Positions 16,002-27,174 of a DNA stretch of 47,230 bases are shown in pieces. The notes beneath the pieces were generated by a model, which worked only from the letters and a program-made list of their open reading frames with translations, was not told the origin of the DNA and ran no database searches. Both the position numbers and the translations under genes were made by a program. The DNA comes from Methanomassiliicoccales archaeon (lineage in GTDB: Archaea; Thermoplasmatota; Thermoplasmata; Methanomassiliicoccales; JACIVX01). Positions within the stretch are counted from its first letter, which is position 1; each line of letters starts with the position of its first letter. The stretch spans positions 1 through 47,230 of the forward strand of contig JARYLV010000013.1 of NCBI GenBank assembly GCA_029907465.1. The letters run 5' to 3'.

Positions 16002-16445
16002 TCAAAGTCCAGGAAACCTCATCACAGATTCGAGGACGATTTGGACTTCCAGGTCGACCAGGCCGATCGGTATTATTTTCTTTGTGATAATATCTTCGAG
16101 GGCTCTATTATCTGGTGCGTGGACTCTGATCATGATACTTCTTTCGCCAGAAACATTGAGAACTTCCATCACACCTGGAACATCCCTCAATTTTTTCAAA
16201 TCATCGGCGACGACATTCTTTGCGAGATTTGCGAAAATCACTGCGTCCGCTTTCATGCCAGTCTGCTCAGTATTGACAATCGCCACATAACCAAGAATGA
16301 CACCGTCATCCTCCAATCTCCTTATCCTGTCTCGAATCGTCGACGGAGACCGGCGCAGTTTAGAGGCCACTTCGTTGTAAGTCATCTTGCCCTCAGTGGC
16401 AAGAAGCTTGATGATCTTTCGATTCATTTCGTCGATGACTACCAA
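16002..16445 (-). CDS. Lrp/AsnC family transcription regulator
   Basis: 147 residues: an N-terminal winged helix-turn-helix (MNRKIIKLLATEGKMTYNEV, SPSTIRDRIRRLEDDGVILG) and a C-terminal RAM ligand-binding domain (about 65-140). Members bind amino acids and form octamers on DNA. It is convergent with gltB3 with 11 nt between stops. A link to nitrogen or amino acid status through the adjacent glutamate synthase genes is plausible but inferred from position only. Confidence 0.9.
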   Translation of the reverse strand: MVVIDEMNRKIIKLLATEGKMTYNEVASKLRRSPSTIRDRIRRLEDDGVILGYVAIVNTEQTGMKADAVIFANLAKNVVADDLKKLRDVPGVMEVLNVSGERSIMIRVHAPDNRALEDIITKKIIPIGLVDLEVQIVLESVMRFPGL

Positions 16446-16810: not shown

Positions 16811-17899
16811 TTAGGCAGGCGCAGCGCTTTTTACCCTTCCATTTGAGTCGTAGTATTTTCTCCTAAACCAAAATGCTACATTCACTAGACTGATCAGAAC
16901 AGGCACTTCGACGAGCGGACCAATGACGGCGGCAAATGCAACTCCAGATCCAATGCCAAATATCGCAATTGCGACGGCGATAGCCAGTTCGAAGTTGTTG
17001 CTCGCAGCAGTGAAACTCTGAGCGGCGGCATGCGGGTAGTCGAACTTCAAGCGGATTGAAAGGCGGAAGGAAAGGAGGAACATGATGGTAAAGTAAAGCA
17101 GCAGTGGGATCGCGATTCTCAGCACATCAATCGGCAGCTGCAATATGTACTCTCCTTTCAAGGAGAACATGACGACGATCGTAAAAAGCAATGCGAGCAA
17201 TGAAACCTTGCTGAGCCTAGGGATGAATTTGTTATCGTACCATTCCGCTCCCTTTCGTGGTAAGAGGGCGTATCTCGTAATGATACCGGCAAAGAAAGGA
17301 ATCCCAAGATAAATGAGTACAGATTGGGCAACCTCCCATATCGATATGCTGACGGCGACACCAGATCCCGGTGCAATAAACTCCGAGAGCACGAAAATCA
17401 TGAAGTAGGCGTAGAATGAGTATGTGAGAATCTGGAAGATGGAATTCAGTGCGACCAATATGGCAGCATATTCGGAATCGCCTTCCGCCAACTGATTCCA
17501 TACGAGAACCATTGCGATGCATCTCGCGAGGCCTGTCAAAATAAGACCTATTCTGTACTCAGGGAGATCTGGCAAAAATATCCATGCGAGCGTGAACATT
17601 AGAAACGGTCCGAGAATGTAGTTTAATGTGAGGGAAGTGCCAAACATCATTTTAGACTCAGGCATTCGCGTGAGCTTTGAAAGTTCTTCATACTTGACCT
17701 TGGCCAGTGGCGGGTACATCATTAGAATGAGGCCGATCGCAATGGGTATTGAGGTAGTGCCAATGCTCATCGAATTAAGTATGTCAGCCACCGCAGGAAA
17801 AACAGCCCCAAGGCCAACACCAATGAACATCGCAAGGAAAATCCATAAAGTTAGATAACGGTTGAGAAATGAGAGTTTCTTTGATATCTGCTCTGCCAT
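16811..17899 (-). CDS. acr3: Arsenite efflux transporter ACR3
   Basis: 362 residues with about ten membrane helices. It shows family features of the ACR3/BASS fold: [12 protein letters not shown], the conserved Cys region [15 protein letters not shown], and the discontinuous helix near [23 protein letters not shown]3 exports As(OH)3 using the proton gradient. GGTGAG lies 6 nt before ATG 17899, which I prefer over the in-frame codon at 17920. The promoter shows a TATA box at 17991-17998 and an inverted repeat over the predicted start at 17961-17978. It is divergent from the permease operon, which carries a related repeat. Confidence 0.92.
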
Positions 17900-17960
17900 G
17901 CTATGCTCACCGCCTCGCACTTAGAGATATCTGCATCAATTGTTCATGAATGAAATGGCA

Positions 17961-17998
17961 TTTCAACAAATTTAGAAATACGTCTAGTCGTATAAAAA
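17961..17998 (-). promoter_or_regulatory. ACR3 promoter with ArsR-like operator
   Basis: On the minus strand a TTTTTATA box (17991-17998) is followed, 25 nt centre to centre, by TTTCTA-AATTTG-TTGAAA (17961-17978), a near-perfect inverted repeat with one arm mismatch from TTCAA-N6-TTGAA. A second interrupted palindrome ATACGtCTAGtCGTAT (17978-17993) overlaps the box. The positions fit repression by blocking the start site. Confidence 0.6.
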
Positions 17999-18273
17999 CA
18001 ATAGGCTACTCTCATATCGAACATGAGAGCTTTTTGGATCAAAGTGAATGGTACGCATTTCAATCATGATTCTAATCCTTTTTCTAGCACTCATTCTTGA
18101 AGTTCCAAGTCTTCGGAAGTTCTTGTTTGGTTCAGGTCTCGATCGCGTTATTTTAGTCTAGAGGTCCAATGGAATTCAATTTTTCTATCATAAGTCCGAG
18201 CGCTCAGGTTTCCAGGTCTATTCCAATCACAATCGTCAATGCATCGGGGTTCATGATCAATTTTGGCAAAAGG

Positions 18274-18314
18274 TTTATTTATCGCATTTTGATAGTGATT
18301 CAAAAAATATTGAA
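18274..18314 (+). promoter_or_regulatory. Permease-operon promoter with ArsR-like operator
   Basis: TATA-like TTTATTTAT at 18274-18282, then a perfect TTCAA-AAAATA-TTGAA repeat at 18299-18314, centred about 28 nt downstream, over the predicted transcription start and just before the ATG at 18328. ArsR/SmtB operators of bacteria commonly have the form TCAA-N6-TTGA. Confidence 0.65.
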
Positions 18315-18327
18315 ATAGGCGACATCA

Positions 18328-19395
18328 ATGGGAGACCCTCTAATTGATTCACTTATCAGCGGCTTCAACAGCATCATGGACTATCTGAGTCAGCATACGC
18401 TTACTTGTCTTATTCCAGCGTTCTTCATCGCTGGAGCTATCGCTGCATTCGTCAAGAAGGAAGCGGTTCTCAAATACTTTGGGCCAAGTGTTAAGAAGAT
18501 CAAATCCTACACCATCGCCTCAGTCTCAGGGACAATACTCGCGGTCTGTAGTTGTACAATATTACCGCTCTTCGCGGGGATCTACAAAAAGGGGAGTGGT
18601 ATCGGTCCGGCAACGACTTTCCTTTTTGCGGGACCAGCAATTAACATTCTGGCCATTGTTTATACAGCTCAAGTATTGGGTTATGATCTCGGGGCTGCAC
18701 GGGCGATATCTGCAATCGCTTTGTCGATCGTCGTCGGGCTTATCATGGCTCTCGTTTTCAGCAAACATGACAAGGCACTTCTTAAGGAAGAGAAGATCTT
18801 CGTCGCTGCACAACCTTCCGATCCAAGGCCGAGATGGGTAGTTCCAATCTTCTTCATACTTCTCATCGCGATTCTTCTTATCGGGGCATCAAAGCTCGAA
18901 TGGGTTCCAAAGCTTGCTGCTATCTACGTGCTTACAATTATCGTCGCAGTCTTGCTTATCTATTATTTTGAAAAGGACGAGGTCACTAACTGGGCCATGG
19001 AAACATGGGATCTGACCAAGAAGATATTTCCGATATTAATTGCTGGTACCTTTATCGTCGGCGTTATCGCATATTTTCTTCCCCCAGAAACTTTCCGCCC
19101 GTATCTCGGCGATAATTCAATCGGGTCAAACCTCCTCGCATCGGTCATCGGTGCGATCCTTTACATGCCGACGTTGCTTGAGGTTCCCATTATTGGGACG
19201 ACTTTTGGCTATTCGACAGGTGTCATGGCTTCTGGACCGGCATTGAGCCTACTGCTAAGCGGTCCGACGACAAGCCTGCCCTCGTTGATCGTCCTCTATA
19301 GGATCATAGGTGCGAAGAAAACGTTTGTCTACTGGATCTCTGTTGTTCTCATATCTACAGCTGCTGGTTTGATATATGGCGCACTGGTGGGATAG
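18328..19395 (+). CDS. Permease of the ArsP/DUF318 type
   Basis: 355 residues, two sets of about four to five membrane helices around a charged loop (residues about 150-180). The first half has AVCSCTILPLFAGIYKKGSG, with Cys74 and Cys76, and LFAGPAINILAI; the second half repeats the pattern as PTLLEVPIIG and SGPALSLLLSGP. Relatives include ArsP (methylarsenite export) and other metal-linked permeases. The operon partners (a thioredoxin-like protein and a DGC protein) and the operator shared with ACR3 support an arsenic or soft-metal role. Whether the substrate is inorganic or organic arsenic cannot be decided. Confidence 0.82.
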   Translation: MGDPLIDSLISGFNSIMDYLSQHTLTCLIPAFFIAGAIAAFVKKEAVLKYFGPSVKKIKSYTIASVSGTILAVCSCTILPLFAGIYKKGSGIGPATTFLFAGPAINILAIVYTAQVLGYDLGAARAISAIALSIVVGLIMALVFSKHDKALLKEEKIFVAAQPSDPRPRWVVPIFFILLIAILLIGASKLEWVPKLAAIYVLTIIVAVLLIYYFEKDEVTNWAMETWDLTKKIFPILIAGTFIVGVIAYFLPPETFRPYLGDNSIGSNLLASVIGAILYMPTLLEVPIIGTTFGYSTGVMASGPALSLLLSGPTTSLPSLIVLYRIIGAKKTFVYWISVVLISTAAGLIYGALVG

Positions 19396-19396
19396 T

Positions 19397-19648
19397 ATGG
19401 GTCAGGAGAAACCGTGTTGCCCGGAATCTGCCGCGAGGAAGGTCAAAAAGCTGAATGTTGGGGGTTTTCAGGTTGGAATTGCCCATCTCGATGAGATCAT
19501 CGAAGAAGTCAAAAATCTGGGACTGAGGGACAGCGGAGAAATCGGAAAGCAATTACTCAAACGCGCCAAGATCTATAATTACATCCCCCCTGGTGCGGAA
19601 GGGGAGTATGCTGAAGCGCTTTTGAAAGAATATCTGAAGAGGAGGTGA
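19397..19648 (+). CDS. Small Cys-pair protein of the permease operon
   Basis: 83 residues starting two bases after the permease stop (ATG 19397; an earlier in-frame start inside the permease is unlikely). CC at positions 7-8 (EKPCCPESA) could bind a soft metal. The rest is helical and soluble, including IAHLDEIIEEVKNLG and NYIPPGAEGEYAEALL. I do not recognise a named family, but its place between a permease and a thioredoxin-like gene suggests an accessory or metal-delivery role. Confidence 0.7.
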   Translation: MGQEKPCCPESAARKVKKLNVGGFQVGIAHLDEIIEEVKNLGLRDSGEIGKQLLKRAKIYNYIPPGAEGEYAEALLKEYLKRR

Positions 19649-19653
19649 AGAAT

Positions 19654-19893
19654 GTGAAGATTGAGGTACTCGGAACAGGATGTCTGAAGTGCAAGAGGCT
19701 GGAAAAGCTCGTGCACCAGGCAGTAGAGGAGCTCGGTATAACGGCGGAGGTCGTCAAAGTTGAGGACATCGAAGAGATCATGAACCGGGGAATTATGATA
19801 ACCCCAGCTCTGTACATCGATGGCGAAGCGAAGGCCGTCGGAAGGGTTCCTACTCTTGACGAGATCAAATCGATGCTCAAAGGAGGGAATTAA
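19654..19893 (+). CDS. Thioredoxin-like redox-active disulfide protein
   Basis: 79 residues from GTG 19654, chosen because GGAGGTG lies 6 nt upstream; the frame opens at 19645. It has a compact thioredoxin fold with CxxC at the start of the first helix (GTGCLKCKRLEKL, Cys10 and Cys13) and the cis-Pro loop ITPALYIDGE. This family (redox-active disulfide protein 2) accompanies ArsP/DUF318 permeases in many genomes and may reduce or pass on the substrate. Its stop overlaps the next start by 1 nt. Confidence 0.85.
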   Translation: MKIEVLGTGCLKCKRLEKLVHQAVEELGITAEVVKVEDIEEIMNRGIMITPALYIDGEAKAVGRVPTLDEIKSMLKGGN

Positions 19894-20300
19894 TGGGAGT
19901 TCCTAAGCAAGAGGAGTGCCTCTGCGGTGGCGGTCCGATTTTGGTCTATGCTTGTTCAGGCGGCTCGAATGTAGGACAGATCACGAACGAGGTCGCCAAG
20001 ATGCTAGCTATGTCGGGAAGGGCGAGGATGTCATGCGCCGCTGGGATAGGCGGACACGTCAGTGGGATTGTCGAGTCTGCAAGGGCAGCAGAAACCTCGG
20101 TGGTCATTGACGGGTGTCACCTTGCTTGTGCGAAGAAATCATTCGAACACTTAGGACTTAAGCCAGCAATTCACGTCGTTGTCACGGACTTGGGCATAAA
20201 GAAATCATACGATCTGAATTCAATGCAAAAAGAAGAAGTCGATTTGGTCTTAAGTCACGTCGCGAATCTACTTCCGGCGCCGTTGAAAGTTAAAATTTAA
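19893..20300 (+). CDS. DGC-domain putative metal-binding protein
   Basis: 135 residues with the family's conserved parts: an N-terminal ECLCGGG, then YACSGGSNVGQITNEVA, CAAGIGGHVSG, and the name-giving DGCHLACAKKSFEH. The several Cys residues are thought to bind zinc or another thiophilic metal; no reaction is established. It is the last gene of the permease operon, and a second copy at 24361 sits behind a matching operator. T-rich sequence follows at about 20318-20323. Confidence 0.85.
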   Translation: MGVPKQEECLCGGGPILVYACSGGSNVGQITNEVAKMLAMSGRARMSCAAGIGGHVSGIVESARAAETSVVIDGCHLACAKKSFEHLGLKPAIHVVVTDLGIKKSYDLNSMQKEEVDLVLSHVANLLPAPLKVKI

Positions 20301-20881
20301 TTACAAGACTCAAATCTTTTTTCACATCAGCGATCTGTTCTCAAAGAGATGAGACGACTTTCTCTCTTTTCGGTGGGCCTACTCTTTCATATACTCGAGA
20401 GCGCGCATGATCCCTTTATTCCATTTAATTATCGAGGTTGATGAAACAAATCTCCTTAGATTTCCTCCCCTAAGCGAAAAACAATGCCAACAACATTAAT
20501 GCATACCGTTACAAAATGATTGGAACCCTATTCTTCGGTCTTTAACTCTCTTCGAACGGTGAATCAAAGTGTTGATCTTGAACTCGCTCTCTCGGTGGCT
20601 ATCTATCTAATTGTGTTTTTGACTTCCAACTTTGTTTTTACCGAACCGTCCTTGTTTTTATAGCTATGGAGGAATCCAAGGGATGATAGTTTTGTGCGCA
20701 TAGAAAAGAGAACACTTTCGTGCATCTCCACCTCGTCAGAAGACGTTTACATGAGTTGGATCCCCTCCAAAAAATCGATTTTTGAGATTTGCTCCGGATT
20801 TACCAGGTTCACAATGGCGAATATTAACGATAGTTTAATGCATTTCATCTCTTATACCTCTGATGAAAGAGGGACAGGGTC
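20301..20881. other. Intergenic region upstream of the ThiN-PurM gene
   Basis: 581 nt. An 82-codon frame overlapping the next gene has no ribosome site and unlikely composition. GTTTTTATAG near 20655 and CTTATACC near 20850 could be TATA boxes, and the second would give a very short leader. No RNA gene was recognised. Confidence 0.45.
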
Positions 20882-22528
20882 ATGGAGTTTGAAGATAGAG
20901 TCGAGATGTACGGAAAAATGGTACTCGCCCTCGAAATCATAGAGAATTCCAGAGATTTTGCATTCTTAATTCCAGAGGTCAGAACGAATCTCGTCTTTGC
21001 CTCGCCCAATGCGGCATCGCCTAAAGATGTCCTTGCCGTCGAGGGGAGAATTACAGTCGTTGATGGCTTCCCACGAGCTGCTGGCCCGATAAGATTCGGG
21101 GCATCGAATCATATGGCAAGGCTGATAATAGAAATCAACAAAAGGGATTCAAGTGTCCGCGCTGGCATCAATTTCGCGGGCACACCAGAATTGACAGAAT
21201 GGCTCAAAGGTTTTTGTGAGGGAAAGGGCTGGACCTTCGGCGTCATCGACCGGTCAAAAGAACCTGTTGAACTCTCATTAATAGACGGCGAGTCAATGCC
21301 CTGGAAAGTTGATGAACTGGTTCGATCCTCAGGCGGTAAGGTACCAAAAGTCTTCTATGAAACTGGCGCCGTTGGAAAAGAGCCCGTTTCCGTTCTAGTG
21401 GGAAAGGATCCAGTTGAAGTAGCGAGGGAAGCGTGCGAGATCGCAAGCGCGTTTTCTAGGGAAACCAGGGGAATGATTCGAAAAGGAGCAAAAGTCGGGA
21501 AAATAGCACCAGAGGAGTTCGAATCGATCATCGTCGGCAGATTCGGTGCAGTCGATAACACGGTAATCATACCCCCGAAAGCGGGTGTTGATGCGGGCGT
21601 GATCGATTTGGGCAACAACCTGGTCCTCGTGGTTGCGGAAGACCCGATTTTTTCTATTCCATCCCTTCCATTGGAGATGTTTGGGTGGTATACAGTCCAC
21701 ATAGGCGCGAGTGATGTGGCAGTGATGGGCGTTAAACCGCGGTACATGTGCTATACATTACTTGTACCGCCCGGAACTGGAAAATCGGATCTCGAGATCA
21801 TCGTCGATTCAATACATCGAGCTGCAATCGAACTCGATATAGCCATTGTCGGGGGCCACACGGGTTATTATCCCGGAATTACCACGCCTCTTATCGGTGG
21901 GATTACGGTCTTCGGGATTGCTGCGAAGGGGGAGTACGTCACTGCCGCTGGAGCAAAGCCTGGAAACGACATCATTTTGACTAAGGGGCCAGCGATCGAG
22001 GCTGTCGGAATCCTCGCATCTGTCTATGAAAAAGAACTGGTCAGGAGTTACGATGTTGACACGATTGAAAAAGCCAAGTCATTGATGCGGAAGATCTCTG
22101 TTGTAAAGGATGCGATGATTGCCATGAACACAAGCGGAGTAACAGCGATGCACGATGCGACGGAGGGCGGCGTGATCGGTGGTCTCTTTGAGATCGCGCA
22201 AGCAAGTAATGTCGGAATGGAGGTCGACGAGTCGCAATTTATAATTCCCGATGAGGTAGAGTTGATCTGCAAAGCGTTTAATATCGATCCTATCGAAGCG
22301 ATTTCTGAGGGATCCCTCATTATTACTGCGGCAGCGGAAAAGTCCTCTCAAATCATCGGCAACCTCAAACGTTCCGGTATCGAGGCATCTGTGATAGGGA
22401 AAGTCGTTGCCTCCACTGAGAAAAGAATTCTGAGGCGTAGAAATGGTGAAATGGTCCCGTTGAGGATCCCGGAGCAGGACCCCTTCTGGCCCGTATTTTT
22501 CGAAGGCCTTCCCTCAACGCCGTCATGA
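20882..22528 (+). CDS. ThiN domain fused to a PurM/HypE-like (AIR synthase) domain
   Basis: 548 residues in two parts. Residues 1 to about 195 match ThiN, the archaeal thiamine-phosphate synthase domain: LIPEVRTNLVFASPNA, VEGRITVVDGFPRAAGP, RFGASNHMARLI with the conserved His, and KEPVSVLVGKDPVEVA. From about 210 on it is an AIR synthase/HypE-like ATP-binding module: GASDVAVMGVKPRYMCY, IVGGHTGYYPGITTPLIGG, DATEGGVIGGLFEIA. The C-terminus lacks the Cys of true HypE. ThiN normally occurs with ThiD or an HTH. As ThiL (thiamine-monophosphate kinase) belongs to the PurM superfamily, a synthase-kinase fusion is conceivable, but the second half looks closer to archaeal COG0309 proteins. Confidence 0.8.
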   Translation: MEFEDRVEMYGKMVLALEIIENSRDFAFLIPEVRTNLVFASPNAASPKDVLAVEGRITVVDGFPRAAGPIRFGASNHMARLIIEINKRDSSVRAGINFAGTPELTEWLKGFCEGKGWTFGVIDRSKEPVELSLIDGESMPWKVDELVRSSGGKVPKVFYETGAVGKEPVSVLVGKDPVEVAREACEIASAFSRETRGMIRKGAKVGKIAPEEFESIIVGRFGAVDNTVIIPPKAGVDAGVIDLGNNLVLVVAEDPIFSIPSLPLEMFGWYTVHIGASDVAVMGVKPRYMCYTLLVPPGTGKSDLEIIVDSIHRAAIELDIAIVGGHTGYYPGITTPLIGGITVFGIAAKGEYVTAAGAKPGNDIILTKGPAIEAVGILASVYEKELVRSYDVDTIEKAKSLMRKISVVKDAMIAMNTSGVTAMHDATEGGVIGGLFEIAQASNVGMEVDESQFIIPDEVELICKAFNIDPIEAISEGSLIITAAAEKSSQIIGNLKRSGIEASVIGKVVASTEKRILRRRNGEMVPLRIPEQDPFWPVFFEGLPSTPS

Positions 22529-22622
22529 ACTCTTCCACGATCTTTTCAATACCAGTTAGTGCGGGGTTTGAAATCACGAAGGTTTGGATTGGTATCCACG
22601 GCAGTTGCTGATTATCATTTTT

Positions 22623-23783
22623 CTACCATGATCTAATTGGAGAGATCTCTCTCAACGTTCTGACAGCCTCCGGGATAACATCGAGGAAGTAGTTGACCTC
22701 TTCAAATGTGTTCATCCTGCTCAGGCTAACTCTCAACGACCCCCTCGCCTGTTCAGGCCTGAGCCCGCATGCGAGTAGGACGTGTGATGGCTCGAGATCC
22801 TTCGTAGAACACGCTGAGCCAGTTGACGTCGCAATTCCTCTCATATCGAGTTGAAGCACGAGGGCCTCTCCCTCTACAAAGTCGAATCTGAAATTAGCAT
22901 TGTTGCAAAGACGCTTGTATCGATGGCCATTGAGATAGGAATCTGAGACTCTAGAAAGGACACCGTCAATGATGCGCTCTCTCATCGCCTTCATTTTTTC
23001 AACATCTTCTATCATGCTTCGCATACCGATCTCTACCGCCTTACCCAGACCGACGATTCCGCTGACATTTTCGGTCGACGAACGAAGCCCCCTTTCATGA
23101 CCGCCACCGTACATGATCGGCCTTATCTTTACTCCGTTGCGGACGTAGAGGGCACCGACGCCTTTTGGGCCATGGATCTTATGCGCTGAGAGTGATAGCA
23201 GATCGATTGAGTCCTTTACGACATCAATTGGCATTTTCATGAATGCTTGAACCGCATCTGTGTGAAATAGCGTCTTGTGATCATGAGCAATTTCGCCGAT
23301 CGCTCGGATCGGCTGAATCGTGCCGATTTCGTTATTGGCTGCCATGACTGATACAAGTATCGTTTGACGGGTCATTGCTTCTTTGACCGCTTCCTCAGAA
23401 ACAATTCCTTCGCTACTCACCGGCAAATAGGTGACGCTAAATCCCTGACTTTCCAAAAATCGGCAGGTGTGAAGTACGGCATGATGCTCAATCGCGCTCG
23501 TGATAATATGATTTCCTCGATCCTTATTTGCGAATGCGATGCCTTGGATGGCAAGATTGTCTGACTCCGTCCCTCCCGAAGTAAAAATGATCTCCCTTGA
23601 TGTTGCATTGAGCGCCTTAGCAACGATTCTCCTTGCCTCCTCCATTGCCTCCTGCGCCTCACGCCCAAAAGAATGGAGGCTTGAGGCGTTCCCGAATTTT
23701 TCATCGAAGAATGGCAGCATCGCCTCGACGACTTTCGGATCAACCCGCGTCGTTGCACTATTATCAAAGTAGACCTTCGGCAT
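22623..23783 (-). CDS. Cysteine desulfurase, NifS/IscS type
   Basis: 386 residues, PLP-dependent. It has YFDNSATTRVDPKV at the N-terminus, the PLP-Lys in SLSAHKIHGPKGVGAL, and the catalytic persulfide Cys in STGSACSTKDLEPSHVLLA. It takes sulfur from cysteine for Fe-S clusters or thio-cofactors. ATG 23783 is chosen because GGTG sits 7 nt before it and the usual family start is MPKVYFDNSATT; an in-frame start at 23789 is possible. No IscU-type gene is adjacent, but the surrounding genes are rich in Fe-S proteins. Confidence 0.92.
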   Translation of the reverse strand: MPKVYFDNSATTRVDPKVVEAMLPFFDEKFGNASSLHSFGREAQEAMEEARRIVAKALNATSREIIFTSGGTESDNLAIQGIAFANKDRGNHIITSAIEHHAVLHTCRFLESQGFSVTYLPVSSEGIVSEEAVKEAMTRQTILVSVMAANNEIGTIQPIRAIGEIAHDHKTLFHTDAVQAFMKMPIDVVKDSIDLLSLSAHKIHGPKGVGALYVRNGVKIRPIMYGGGHERGLRSSTENVSGIVGLGKAVEIGMRSMIEDVEKMKAMRERIIDGVLSRVSDSYLNGHRYKRLCNNANFRFDFVEGEALVLQLDMRGIATSTGSACSTKDLEPSHVLLACGLRPEQARGSLRVSLSRMNTFEEVNYFLDVIPEAVRTLREISPIRSW

Positions 23784-23789
23784 CGACAA

Positions 23790-24317
23790 ACACCTAATTT
23801 GATTAACTATTGTTACAATCTATCTCTTTTATACATATTTCGTTTTTGGCGAAGGATGATGGTCGACCGGAGATAAATAAATGAAGATTCCATTCATTTT
23901 TTTGAATACTGATTGATTATTTTTCGATAGTTTTGATTAGAAAATGCCTGATTTTTTGGATCGATTTATGCAATCGATCAGAAAGGGTCATAGGCTGAAA
24001 TAGATCACAAAGAAATAAATGTGATTGAAGGGCCACGGAGGGATCCGAGCAAGGAGGTTCGAAACATATAGATATCGTGAATTTTTACTAAATGGAGGAA
24101 TCACTCATTATTCTTCATATTTGCTGGTCATTCCCAAAATGCGTCAGGATTCATTCGATTGTCTATAACTTGCCATGCTTGTTTTTACTATCATAATCCT
24201 GTCAGCAAAATGATTAATGAATTGATCTGTCGAGAACAGCTCATTTCGAGTAATCAGAATATTTTGTTTTTTTACCGATTGTTTGCATTTTTTAATTCAT
24301 GATCTCGAAACCTTTCA
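23790..24317. other. Intergenic region upstream of the second DGC gene
   Basis: About 530 nt, very AT-rich, with no open frame of note. A short GC-richer island at about 24030-24060 contains GGTTCGAAAC but cannot be folded into a tRNA T-arm. The left end must contain the cysteine desulfurase promoter (TTTTATACAT on the plus strand at 23828-23837 is palindromic enough to serve either way). Confidence 0.4.
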
Positions 24318-24322
24318 ATAAA

Positions 24323-24361
24323 TTATATATAATATGGAAATAATTTCAAATTAATTTGAAA
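24323..24361 (+). promoter_or_regulatory. Promoter and perfect palindromic operator of the DGC/DUF169 operon
   Basis: TATA box TTATATATAA at 24323-24332, followed by TTTCAAATTAATTTGAAA at 24344-24361, a perfect 18-nt palindrome of the form TTCAA-N6-TTGAA. It covers the predicted transcription start and the first base of the open frame, the same layout as at 18299 and 17961. Confidence 0.7.
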
Positions 24362-24762
24362 TGGTGAGAAACGTGAATGAAAACTCTCAAAAAGAAAACG
24401 AAAAGGAAATCCTTCTGGTGAGCTGCAGCGGCGCTTCAAATACAGGGACACTGTCTGATTGTGTGGTGAGGGAACTTGTAAATGAAAATCCGAAAAAATA
24501 CAAGTTGCTTTGCTTACCAGCACTTGCTCTTGGCCGCAAGAACGCGATGGAGAGTTTGAAAAACGCCAGTCATATCATTGTCCTCGATGGCTGCGCGATG
24601 AAGTGTGCAACCCAAATTCTGCAAGAAAAGGGACGGTTACCAGACGTTTCGATTGAATTGGCAAAAGATTGTGGGATAAAAAAGAACATGATTCCCACTT
24701 GTGAAAAGGAAGATGTCAAAAAAATCAAAGAATTGGTAAAAAGGGCGACGGAAAATTGGTGA
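24361..24762 (+). CDS. DGC-domain putative metal-binding protein, second copy
   Basis: 133 residues if begun at ATG 24361; GTG 24373, preceded by GGTGA, is an alternative that would leave the operator fully untranslated. It shares with the copy at 19893 the pattern SCSGASNTGTLSDCVVREL, a Cys-containing middle (LLCLPALALGRK) and DGCAMKCATQILQEKG. It is probably co-transcribed with the ferredoxin-DUF169 gene 5 nt downstream. The two copies are divergent in sequence, so this is not a recent duplication. Confidence 0.83.
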   Translation: MVRNVNENSQKENEKEILLVSCSGASNTGTLSDCVVRELVNENPKKYKLLCLPALALGRKNAMESLKNASHIIVLDGCAMKCATQILQEKGRLPDVSIELAKDCGIKKNMIPTCEKEDVKKIKELVKRATENW

Positions 24763-24767
24763 TTTGC

Positions 24768-25700
24768 ATGGTCGAAAAGATCATTTTTGACTCTGACAAA
24801 TGTACGATGTGCGGGAAATGTATCGAAATATGTCCGGGCAACGCCCTCGAAATGGGTGACAATGCTCCCCGTCTAATCAACAGCGAACTCTGCTCCCTCT
24901 GTGGAGTATGCGAAGATCAGTGTCCCGTTGGTGCGATTACTATCCCGTCAAAGCCTGCTGCGGTCTATCAAGCGACGATTATCACAGGTGATCCAGGTAT
25001 TGTTGAAGTATCAGAAAAAATCGCTAGCTTACTCGACCTCAAGAAAATGCCTGTTGGGGTAAAATTACTGAACCAGCAAGAATCGCCTTCTCCAGGATTT
25101 AGAAAGGTCGATATTCCACTCCGACACTGCGTTTCCGTTCATATGGCGTCACTTGGTGCAAGCCTTTATCTCCCCGGTGAAATGCACGCTTGTTCTGCCG
25201 CCAAAGCCGCACTCGGGATTGCGGAATTACCTGAAAAAGTGAAATCTGGTAAGGTTCCATATATGCATGGTCTTGCCGCATCGGAGAAGATCGCTGCGCG
25301 GATTATGGAAGAAGTTCCAAAGCTTGAGCCGGGTAGTACGGGAGGGACTTTGGTTGCCCCCCTTAAGAGTTTTGTTGATGCCCCCGACGTTGTAATTATC
25401 ACCTGCCTTCCAAAACAGGCGATGTGGATTGCTAACTCCCTTCTATATTCGACTGGTGGCCCACGGATTACAGCAAATTTCGCAGGTATGCAAGCTTCTT
25501 GCGGAGATGTGACGACAATACCGTTGAAAACAGGTAAAGTCAACTTCTCACTCGGCTGTTATGGCTGTCGGTCAGCCGGTAAGCTCCGAGATGAAGAGAT
25601 GTACGTGGGCATTCCGTGGTCTATGATTCATTCAGTTGTCGGAGGGCTTATTGGTCTGAGAAAGGCGATGGGAAAGCTGGAAGCGCGTATCCAAAGCTAA
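24768..25700 (+). CDS. Ferredoxin-DUF169 fusion protein
   Basis: 310 residues. The first 60 hold two 4Fe-4S motifs (CTMCGKCIEICPGN and CSLCGVCEDQCPVG). The rest is a DUF169 domain (about 75-305) with MHACSAAKAALGIAE, VIITCLPKQAMWIANSL, MQASCGDVTTIPL and SLGCYGCRSAGKLRDEEM. DUF169 proteins occur in anaerobes and the function is unknown. ATG 24768 is chosen with GGTGAT just before it; TTG 24756 and GTG 24759 are also in frame. With the DGC gene it forms an operon under the TTCAA-N6-TTGAA operator, which hints at a redox or metal response. Confidence 0.85.
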   Translation: MVEKIIFDSDKCTMCGKCIEICPGNALEMGDNAPRLINSELCSLCGVCEDQCPVGAITIPSKPAAVYQATIITGDPGIVEVSEKIASLLDLKKMPVGVKLLNQQESPSPGFRKVDIPLRHCVSVHMASLGASLYLPGEMHACSAAKAALGIAELPEKVKSGKVPYMHGLAASEKIAARIMEEVPKLEPGSTGGTLVAPLKSFVDAPDVVIITCLPKQAMWIANSLLYSTGGPRITANFAGMQASCGDVTTIPLKTGKVNFSLGCYGCRSAGKLRDEEMYVGIPWSMIHSVVGGLIGLRKAMGKLEARIQS

Positions 25701-25712
25701 TTGTTACCTCCC

Positions 25713-25720
25713 TTTTTTTT
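25713..25720 (+). terminator. T8 terminator after the DGC/DUF169 operon
   Basis: A run of eight T starts 12 nt after the stop codon, followed by further T-rich sequence. This is the usual form of intrinsic termination in archaea, which needs no hairpin. Confidence 0.55.
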
Positions 25721-25820
25721 CGATTTTCTTGCTTTTGGGAATTCTTGAGTTGTAGTTTGCTTACATTACATTCAATGTCGATAGATGTGGATTCTTTCAG
25801 CAATGCATTTTCTGGTGATT

Positions 25821-26138
25821 TCAATCGGATGAGGTGTTGCTCAGACTGCGAGGTTGCCCGTCGACTAACTCATAGATCAATTTGCAAACTTTTTCAGCAT
25901 CGTCTTTCATATTCGCTTTGATTAGGATCTTACCATTTGGATAAATATGGCAAACAGTTCCAGTATCTTCAAATAGAACGAGCAAAAAACATCCGAGGCG
26001 CGTAATTTCCTGAACACCAACATTCTTGAGTTTCGATTCAAGGTTCTCGAGATTAATCTCTAGTCTCTCTTTTGGTGTTGCCTCAAATTCTTCAATTCCA
26101 GAACAGAGTTTTCTCATAACAAATTCAACAACTGTCAT
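25821..26138 (-). CDS. Small protein, TBP-like half-domain, unknown
   Basis: 105 residues. The central part (GCFLLVLFEDTGTVCHIYPN, GKILIKANMKDDAEKVCKLI) has the strand-turn-strand-helix pattern of TBP-like or related folds and resembles the first domain of the neighbouring Fe-S protein. It overlaps that gene by 4 nt and is probably its partner. Two or three Cys residues are present but no complete cluster motif. I do not know the function. Confidence 0.65.
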   Translation of the reverse strand: MTVVEFVMRKLCSGIEEFEATPKERLEINLENLESKLKNVGVQEITRLGCFLLVLFEDTGTVCHIYPNGKILIKANMKDDAEKVCKLIYELVDGQPRSLSNTSSD

Positions 26139-26683
26139 CTCTTATCCCTTTTCAGCCCTGCCTGGATTAGCAGAGAATCAATCTTCTCCCTCGTTGATCT
26201 GTAGTTTTCTTGGGATAACGGTTGACAGCTTTCTATTTGGGCTCGGCCTTCGAGAATCTCCACCGCAAACGCCATGCACGTCGGGAAACCGCATTTGCCG
26301 CAGTTACTCCTCGGCAGAAGTCTGAGAAGATCGATTATCCCGACCTTTTTCCGTTTCTTATATTCCTCTGGGTCGATTTCGTTTTTCCTCTCTTTCACAT
26401 CCTCTATCCAGTCAACAACTTCTTTAATGACCCGTTCCGCTTCATCTAGATCAGTTAGCTGAGTTATCCCTACATTGCCCTCCCCATCGATTGAGATGAT
26501 TCTTTCCTTTGATTTATATGATAAGACATTGGCCCCCTCATTATAACTAGAACCAAGTCGATCGCTTGCGAGGTATGGTAAAAGGGATTGGATATCGCCT
26601 TCGATTCTGTAGATCGCTCTGATTTTCCTGCTGTCCGCGATACATGGCAGCGTTTCGACAAGCGCCCATTTGAAACTACCCAT
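26135..26683 (-). CDS. Fe-S protein with CODH/CFeSP-type 4Fe-4S domain
   Basis: 182 residues. The N-terminal domain (about 1-95) has the pattern LGSSYNEGANVLSYKSKE, IISIDGEGNVGITQ, LDEAERVIKEVVDWI. The C-terminal part (about 118-160) is the 4Fe-4S domain found in the corrinoid protein of CO dehydrogenase/acetyl-CoA synthase and in Rnf/NADH-linked proteins: SNCGKCGFPTC then ESC, i.e. C-x2-C-x4-C-x16-C. It may supply electrons for reactivating a corrinoid protein or for another low-potential reaction; no such enzyme is in the window. It is transcribed away from the gene at 26845. Confidence 0.75.
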   Translation of the reverse strand: MGSFKWALVETLPCIADSRKIRAIYRIEGDIQSLLPYLASDRLGSSYNEGANVLSYKSKERIISIDGEGNVGITQLTDLDEAERVIKEVVDWIEDVKERKNEIDPEEYKKRKKVGIIDLLRLLPRSNCGKCGFPTCMAFAVEILEGRAQIESCQPLSQENYRSTREKIDSLLIQAGLKRDKR

Positions 26684-26748
26684 TGGATCTAACCATCCTT
26701 ATCAGGGATTCACAGAGATTCTTTTTTTCAGAATCGATTTGTCATCAG

Positions 26749-26785
26749 TATTAAATAGCCCTGAGCTATTTCAACTTTTTTGAAA
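26749..26785 (+). promoter_or_regulatory. Promoter with a related inverted repeat, spacer one base shorter
   Basis: TATTAAATAG (26749-26758) followed by TTTCAA-CTTTT-TTGAAA (26769-26785), centred 23 nt downstream. The arms match the operators at 18299 and 24344 exactly, but the spacer is 5 nt rather than 6, so membership in the same regulon is less certain. The box is nearly symmetric and may also serve the divergent Fe-S gene pair. Confidence 0.5.
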
Positions 26786-26844: not shown

Positions 26845-27174
26845 ATGACGTCAAAAGTGAAGGTCAACATGAGTGTGTGCGGCAAAACGACGATTATCAA
26901 AGTCACGCAAAATGAAGACGGAGACTTTGAAATCGAGGCAGAGACAGATTGCGACAATGTGAAGGAATTCATTGGTCTGCTTGGAAAATTGACACTGACA
27001 GATATTTCAGATAAGCCAAACAGTCGAATCTGGGAGTGCTTCAAGAAAGCAAAGATGAGCTCGACTTGCTTGACACCGGCTGCAGTCGTCAATGCCGCAT
27101 GGCTCGAGGCGGGAATGTTATCGAAGAATCTCGCACTTTCAAAAGGAAAAATCTGCGTGGAATATCTTGAATGA
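26845..27174 (+). CDS. Small Cys-containing archaeal protein (DUF6951-like)
   Basis: 109 residues from ATG 26845, which has GGTGA 5 nt upstream; the frame opens at 26794. Cys residues recur: NMSVCGKTTIIKV, ETDCDNVKEF, IWECFKKAKMSSTCLTPAAV and KGKICVEYLE. The CLTPAAVVNAAWLEAGML segment is typical of a small archaeal family of unknown function that I believe corresponds to DUF6951. The promoter carries a variant of the operator found in the arsenic-linked operons. A metal-binding role is possible but unproven. Confidence 0.72.
   Translation: MTSKVKVNMSVCGKTTIIKVTQNEDGDFEIEAETDCDNVKEFIGLLGKLTLTDISDKPNSRIWECFKKAKMSSTCLTPAAVVNAAWLEAGMLSKNLALSKGKICVEYLE

Follow-up and report, generated by a model that had tools for sequence, protein, structure and literature searches.

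A conserved palindrome at arsenic transporter and DUF gene promoters of a Methanomassiliicoccales methanogen is a probable operator of an ArsR repressor

Four transcription units of a Methanomassiliicoccales methanogen carry similar inverted repeats at their promoters, which raises the question whether these units form one regulon and, if so, which protein and which signal control it. The window analyzed here (47,230 nucleotides) is one whole contig (C13) of a draft genome of 1.72 Mb that is 96% complete. A preliminary description of this DNA had claimed that the four promoters share the arms of a TTCAA-N6-TTGAA motif, and when the sites were read directly, all four were found as described. 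The genes and the putative control elements are as follows:

16811-17902, minus strand, ACR3 arsenite efflux transporter (TIGR00832 equivalog, 432 bits vs. a cut-off of 282.8)
17961-17978, minus strand, putative operator O1 of ACR3, TTTCTAAATTTGTTGAAA, one mismatch, read directly
17991-17998, minus strand, TATA-like box of ACR3, TTTTTATA
18274-18281, plus strand, TATA-like box of the ArsP operon, TTTATTTA
18298-18315, plus strand, putative operator O2 of the ArsP operon, with an exact core at 18299-18314, TTCAAAAAATATTGAA
18328-19395, plus strand, ArsP-type permease (PF03773, 248.8 bits vs. a cut-off of 32.3) with a C-S-C motif
19397-19648, plus strand, small CC-containing protein, between permease and thioredoxin
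19645-19893, plus strand, MTH895/ArsE-type thioredoxin (TIGR00412, 106.8 bits vs. a cut-off of 62)
19893-20300, plus strand, DGC-domain protein 1 (PF08859, 113.3 bits vs. a cut-off of 27)
24323-24330, plus strand, TATA box of the DGC2-DUF169 operon, TTATATAT
24343-24362, plus strand, putative operator O3 of the DGC2-DUF169 operon, perfect 20-nt palindrome, ATTTCAAATTAATTTGAAAT
24361-24762, plus strand, DGC-domain protein 2 (PF08859, 82.7 bits)
24768-25700, plus strand, 2[4Fe-4S] ferredoxin fused to DUF169 (PF02596), profile match
26749-26756, plus strand, TATA-like box of the DUF6951 gene, TATTAAAT
26769-26785, plus strand, putative operator O4 of the DUF6951 gene, TTTCAACTTTTTTGAAA, spacer of 5, arms exact
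26845-27174, plus strand, DUF6951 protein (PF22263, 63 bits vs. a cut-off of 27)

For O3, a perfect palindrome of 18 nt had been recorded. Its inner 18 nucleotides (24344-24361, TTTCAAATTAATTTGAAA) are indeed palindromic, but the perfect repeat extends over 20 nt. Among the gene products, the identity of ACR3 is certain from its profile score. The permease resembles the cluster-1 ArsP organoarsenical permeases (PMC4435449) in its PF03773 domain, its C(S/T)C motif, its signatures (LAVCSC and HTLTCLIPAFFIAG in the translation) and its co-occurrence with ACR3, but it differs from them in its operon partners (small CC protein, thioredoxin and DGC protein). Assignment of the permease as SaoE or SO_0444 efflux transporter was rejected, the scores being below the cut-offs (105 vs. 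325 and 97 vs. 300 bits). No Pfam family matched the small CC protein, and similar small CC proteins accompany ArsP throughout the order (L080, L084, L095, L096). The true start of the DUF6951 protein is probably 26845 and not 26794, because the similarity to proteins of other genomes sets in only around residue 17 of the longer frame. The stretch 25821-26683 encodes a protein of 105 amino acids that matches the TBP domain weakly (22.6 bits, slightly below the cut-off) and is adjoined by an Fe-S protein with a PF04060 domain. This TBP-like protein recurs within ars clusters of relatives (L080, L082, L085, L086, L119).

When TTCAA-N6-TTGAA was counted in the window with at most one mismatch, we observed seven matches vs. 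an expectation of 3.9, and at least as many were obtained in 9 of 100 shuffles. This number is within the chance level, and thus the window by itself proves little. For the whole genome, in which the chance level was gauged with a reversed-pattern control, the exact 16-mer occurred nine times vs. once for the control. Seven of these nine matches are located in coding frames or at the 3' end of a gene. A genome-wide motif scan had been proposed in the preliminary description, and it can be seen that the only two intergenic exact 16-mers of the 1.72-Mb genome are those at the ArsP permease and DGC-DUF169 promoters. For the 18-mer with at most one mismatch, 3 of the 22 genome matches fall in the 6.4 kb of this locus (binomial P of about 8e-5 per given 6.4-kb stretch), and the one-mismatch sites that were inspected elsewhere in this genome lie in coding frames or are not accompanied by a clear promoter layout.

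To compare the promoters across species, we used orthologous loci from 120 relatives, with loci on the minus strand re-oriented, and scored TTTCAA-N5/6-TTGAAA in the 220 nt preceding the gene, allowing for one mismatch. For ferredoxin-DUF169 fusions, 600 nt were used, because DGC2 precedes the fusion. Among the relatives from the Methanomassiliicoccales, the computed site was present upstream of 24 of 25 ArsP genes and of 25 of 30 ACR3 genes. The sole ArsP exception (G018) carries an exact site farther upstream, past a small ORF. The site was also found at all four ferredoxin-DUF169 fusion operons tested and at 5 of 30 DUF6951 genes, and at none of 26 DUF169 paralogues without a ferredoxin part. 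Shuffled upstream regions gave means of 0.05-0.22 sites per set and a maximum of 2. The sister species G002 has retained the whole layout with a site at all four promoters. O1 has the same site in G001 and an N5 form in G002, O3 is identical in G001 and has one mismatch in G002, and O4 has an N5 site at the G002 orthologue too and is shared with this sister species and a few others. The exact 18-mer occurred 85 times in the 120 relatives vs. 3 times for the control. Across the wider class, 59 of 400 genomes carry the 20-mer vs. one control match, and 8 of the 14 loci outside the order are at an ArsP promoter.

Conservation across species thus confirms, at the level of sequence comparison, that the palindrome is a real site. 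The concern, raised in the preliminary description, that the motif might be equally common in random intergenic DNA is not borne out. That AT-rich palindromes happen to fall near promoters would agree with the window-only count, but for O1-O3 this reading is refuted by the conservation at orthologous promoters across families, the absence from paralogue promoters and the large excess over the control pattern in relatives, which leave it a negligible likelihood.

When 47 promoters were aligned, their consensus was [A/G]TTTCAA-N6-TTGAAAT, a 7-6-7 palindrome, and an AT-rich octamer occupied positions -23 to -16 relative to the left edge of the palindrome. Archaeal transcription initiates about 25 nt past the TATA box. 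Since the spacing between TATA box and site is constant, the predicted start falls inside the palindrome. This agrees with the earlier placement of the site at the predicted start, downstream of TATA, and it can now be added that the spacing is fixed in 47 promoters. Such a position fits a repressor that would block the polymerase or initiation. In the promoter region of ACR3, we also observed a second element, TAAC-N4-GTTA (e.g., TAACAATGGTTAGGAA), which lies just 5' of the TATA region in many relatives (L180-L185, L192, L193, L203). The same form is present in the window upstream of a cysteine desulfurase gene (23807-23818, TAACTATTGTTA).

For ArsR/SmtB proteins, inverted repeats overlapping promoters have been reported; a 12-2-12 repeat was described for SmtB, and shorter forms such as 6-2-6 have also been reported in the family. 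The operator candidate shares with known ArsR/SmtB operators that it is an AT-rich inverted repeat overlapping basal promoter elements (PMC5658604). However, it is not the 12-2-12 imperfect repeat, its conserved part being 7-6-7, and in contrast to the systems of E. coli ArsR and Thermus TtSmtB it is a 20-nt palindrome at the predicted start of an archaeal TATA promoter. A literature match for TTCAA from Listeria turned out to be a primer and was discarded, and nothing was found in the open-access literature on the footprint of an archaeal arsR.

Which protein might read this operator? There is no arsR gene in the window, as stated in the preliminary description. HTH_5 was matched there by a single gene, which is of the Lrp/AsnC type (16002-16445). 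The genome encodes exactly one CxC-type ArsR, and its gene is located on another contig (G000:C12:25526-25924, 'PLCVCLIK...DSKLSYHL'). Both congeners likewise have one CxC-ArsR per genome, so that this holds for all three species of the genus. The C12 ArsR has a PF01022 winged helix (49.9 bits vs. a cut-off of 22), and its PLCVC aligns with the metalloid box ELCVC of E. coli ArsR. The CxC of its subfamily is retained in all 38 relatives aligned, and its recognition helix DSKLSYHL is identical to that of site-linked ArsRs. Distances to genes were computed from the matches listed, and the counts are therefore lower bounds: of the 75 exact sites listed for the relatives, at least 34 have a CxC-ArsR gene within 6 kb, vs. 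an expectation of 0.25. These site-linked ArsRs belong to one subfamily, which is characterized by the CxC box and a DSKLSYHL-type recognition helix.

The nearest homologues of the C12 ArsR in other Thermoplasmata families include three whose arsR is divergent from ArsP, with the palindrome in the shared promoter (G120, G196, G202; L254, L262, L263). The arsRs of L254, L262 and L263 form a group with the C12 ArsR (support 100/99), separate from the remaining ArsRs of the order. This grouping with ArsP-divergent, palindrome-bearing arsRs is the best evidence for the inference that the C12 ArsR reads this operator. Taken together, the ArsR/arsenic character proposed earlier for the shared operator was upheld in the 120 relatives as well as in additional families of the class. 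The system resembles those of E. coli ArsR and Thermus TtSmtB (PMC5658604) in its ArsR-type HTH, its LCVC metalloid box and its ars targets, but differs from them in that the regulator of this genus is unlinked to its targets. In fact, the C12 gene is not near the four-site cluster but lies among unrelated genes, which on sequence reading resemble methanogenesis-marker, GIY-YIG/DUF123-like and MoaA-like genes, and this setting is kept in the genus. The C12 ArsR may have further targets among the methanogenesis-marker-like neighbors. No site was found at its own promoter, and thus the autoregulatory layout of relatives with a divergent arsR (L254, L262, L263) is absent at the C12 gene. Two genomes of the congeneric family (G004, G005) retain a C12-type ArsR and lack both ArsP and any exact site.

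It is conceivable that the operators are real but are read by another protein, either the Lrp/AsnC-type protein (16002-16445) or an ArsR encoded in the 4% of the genome that is not assembled. The Lrp-type gene adjoins ACR3 here and in G002, and the C12 ArsR is neither linked to the sites nor under the control of one. Elsewhere, however, the sites adjoin CxC-ArsR genes rather than Lrp genes, each of the three species in the genus has a single CxC-ArsR, and the recognition helix of this protein matches those of the site-linked ArsRs. We consider another regulator improbable on these grounds.

The preliminary description had tied DGC, DUF169 and DUF6951 proteins to arsenite export. For DGC and the ferredoxin-DUF169 fusion, this link has gained support; for DUF6951 it remains weak, and for ordinary DUF169 proteins it did not hold. 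The ars operon of Ca. Methanomassiliicoccus armoricus MXMAG1, a member of the same order, has been described as arsRDABC-type with acr3 (PMC7824343). The corresponding cluster (L082/L237) comprises ACR3, ArsR, ArsD, ArsA and an ArsC-like phosphatase, has the same operator at several promoters and includes the gene order site-DGC2-ferredoxin-DUF169-ArsD-ArsA. The passages of PMC7824343 consulted here make no mention of the operator, DGC or DUF169. In contrast to the MXMAG1 cluster, the window has no genes for ArsD, ArsA, ArsC or ArsR. In an independent Thermoplasmata lineage (L235/L283), the order ferredoxin-DUF169-ArsD-ArsA is found 3' of ACR3. Because the site is present at every fusion operon tested and arsD-arsA is adjacent in two lineages, DGC2-ferredoxin-DUF169 is tied to arsenic, and these sequence data argue strongly for membership of DGC and ferredoxin-DUF169 in the arsenic regulon. 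Ferredoxin-free DUF169 paralogues are present nearly everywhere among the relatives, and since they do not carry the site, the arsenic link is limited to the fusion and does not apply to DUF169 at large.

The DUF6951 gene is multicopy, and of the 93 copies listed at least 22 have an ACR3, ArsP or ArsR gene within 6 kb (0.7 expected), but few copies bear the site themselves. DUF6951 would thus be the weakest member of the regulon, its inclusion being suggested by O4 and by the sister species. The DUF169 part of the fusion has five conserved cysteines (C121, C142, C245, C264, C267), and together with the 2[4Fe-4S] domain they would fit a role in electron delivery or metal transfer. An AlphaFold model of the fusion had low confidence (pLDDT 64) and no PDB match. 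When the PDB was searched by sequence, nothing was found for DGC2 or DUF6951, and for the fusion the best 60 of 182 matches were all to the ferredoxin part. We found no assigned role for ferredoxin-fused DUF169, DGC or DUF6951 and no relevant literature joining DUF169 or DGC to arsenic. Tentatively, DGC and ferredoxin-DUF169 could constitute an unrecognized arsenic-detoxification module of anaerobic archaea, in which a ferredoxin-powered redox or thiol-chaperone step would deliver arsenic to ArsD-ArsA or ACR3 under an ArsR regulon spanning several Thermoplasmata families; we give this proposal slightly less than even odds.

In our preferred reading, to which we assign a probability of roughly 0.8, ATTTCAA-N6-TTGAAAT is the operator of a CxC ArsR/SmtB repressor, most likely the C12 ArsR, and an arsenite-type release would derepress the four units jointly. 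An apo-ArsR dimer would sit on the palindrome over the predicted start, about 28 nt past the TATA box (centre to centre), and block the initiation complex at the four units, although the operators are not uniform (one mismatch in O1, a 5-base spacer in O4). Binding of arsenite, or a related trivalent metalloid, to the ArsR cysteines would release the repressor. Derepression of ACR3 would then allow arsenite export, and that of ArsP, the small CC protein, the ArsE-type thioredoxin and DGC1 would probably serve export and handling of organoarsenicals or thiol-bound arsenic. DGC2 and ferredoxin-DUF169 would feed the pumps by a redox or chaperone reaction, and DUF6951 would be derepressed along with the other three units.

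The regulon may be real but respond to a signal other than arsenite, for which antimonite, a soft metal (e.g., Cd or Cu) or an arsenical in methylated or thiolated form would be candidates. The permease is ArsP-like, and this family includes organoarsenical exporters (PMC4435449). Moreover, one relative carries the site at a promoter that serves a heavy-metal P-type ATPase. However, the arsenite exporter ACR3 is the most regular neighbor and target of the site, and ArsD, ArsA and an ArsC-like phosphatase are encoded in the same clusters, so that we regard another signal as unlikely. The ATPase in question has an HMA domain and carries the same operator at its promoter (L086:10822-10839), which suggests that other metals are likewise served by related ArsR paralogues whose sites are similar.

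ArsR regulons are well known, and what is new here, and well supported by the sequence comparisons, is an archaeal regulon with new gene members; the targets differ from those of E. coli ArsR and TtSmtB in that they would include DGC, ferredoxin-DUF169 and DUF6951. A probable archaeal ArsR operator is thereby defined, with a named candidate regulator, and the regulon gives a testable function to ferredoxin-fused DUF169, to DGC and, more weakly, to DUF6951. The arsenic tolerance of methanogens, in turn, bears on the arsenic chemistry of gut and sediment.
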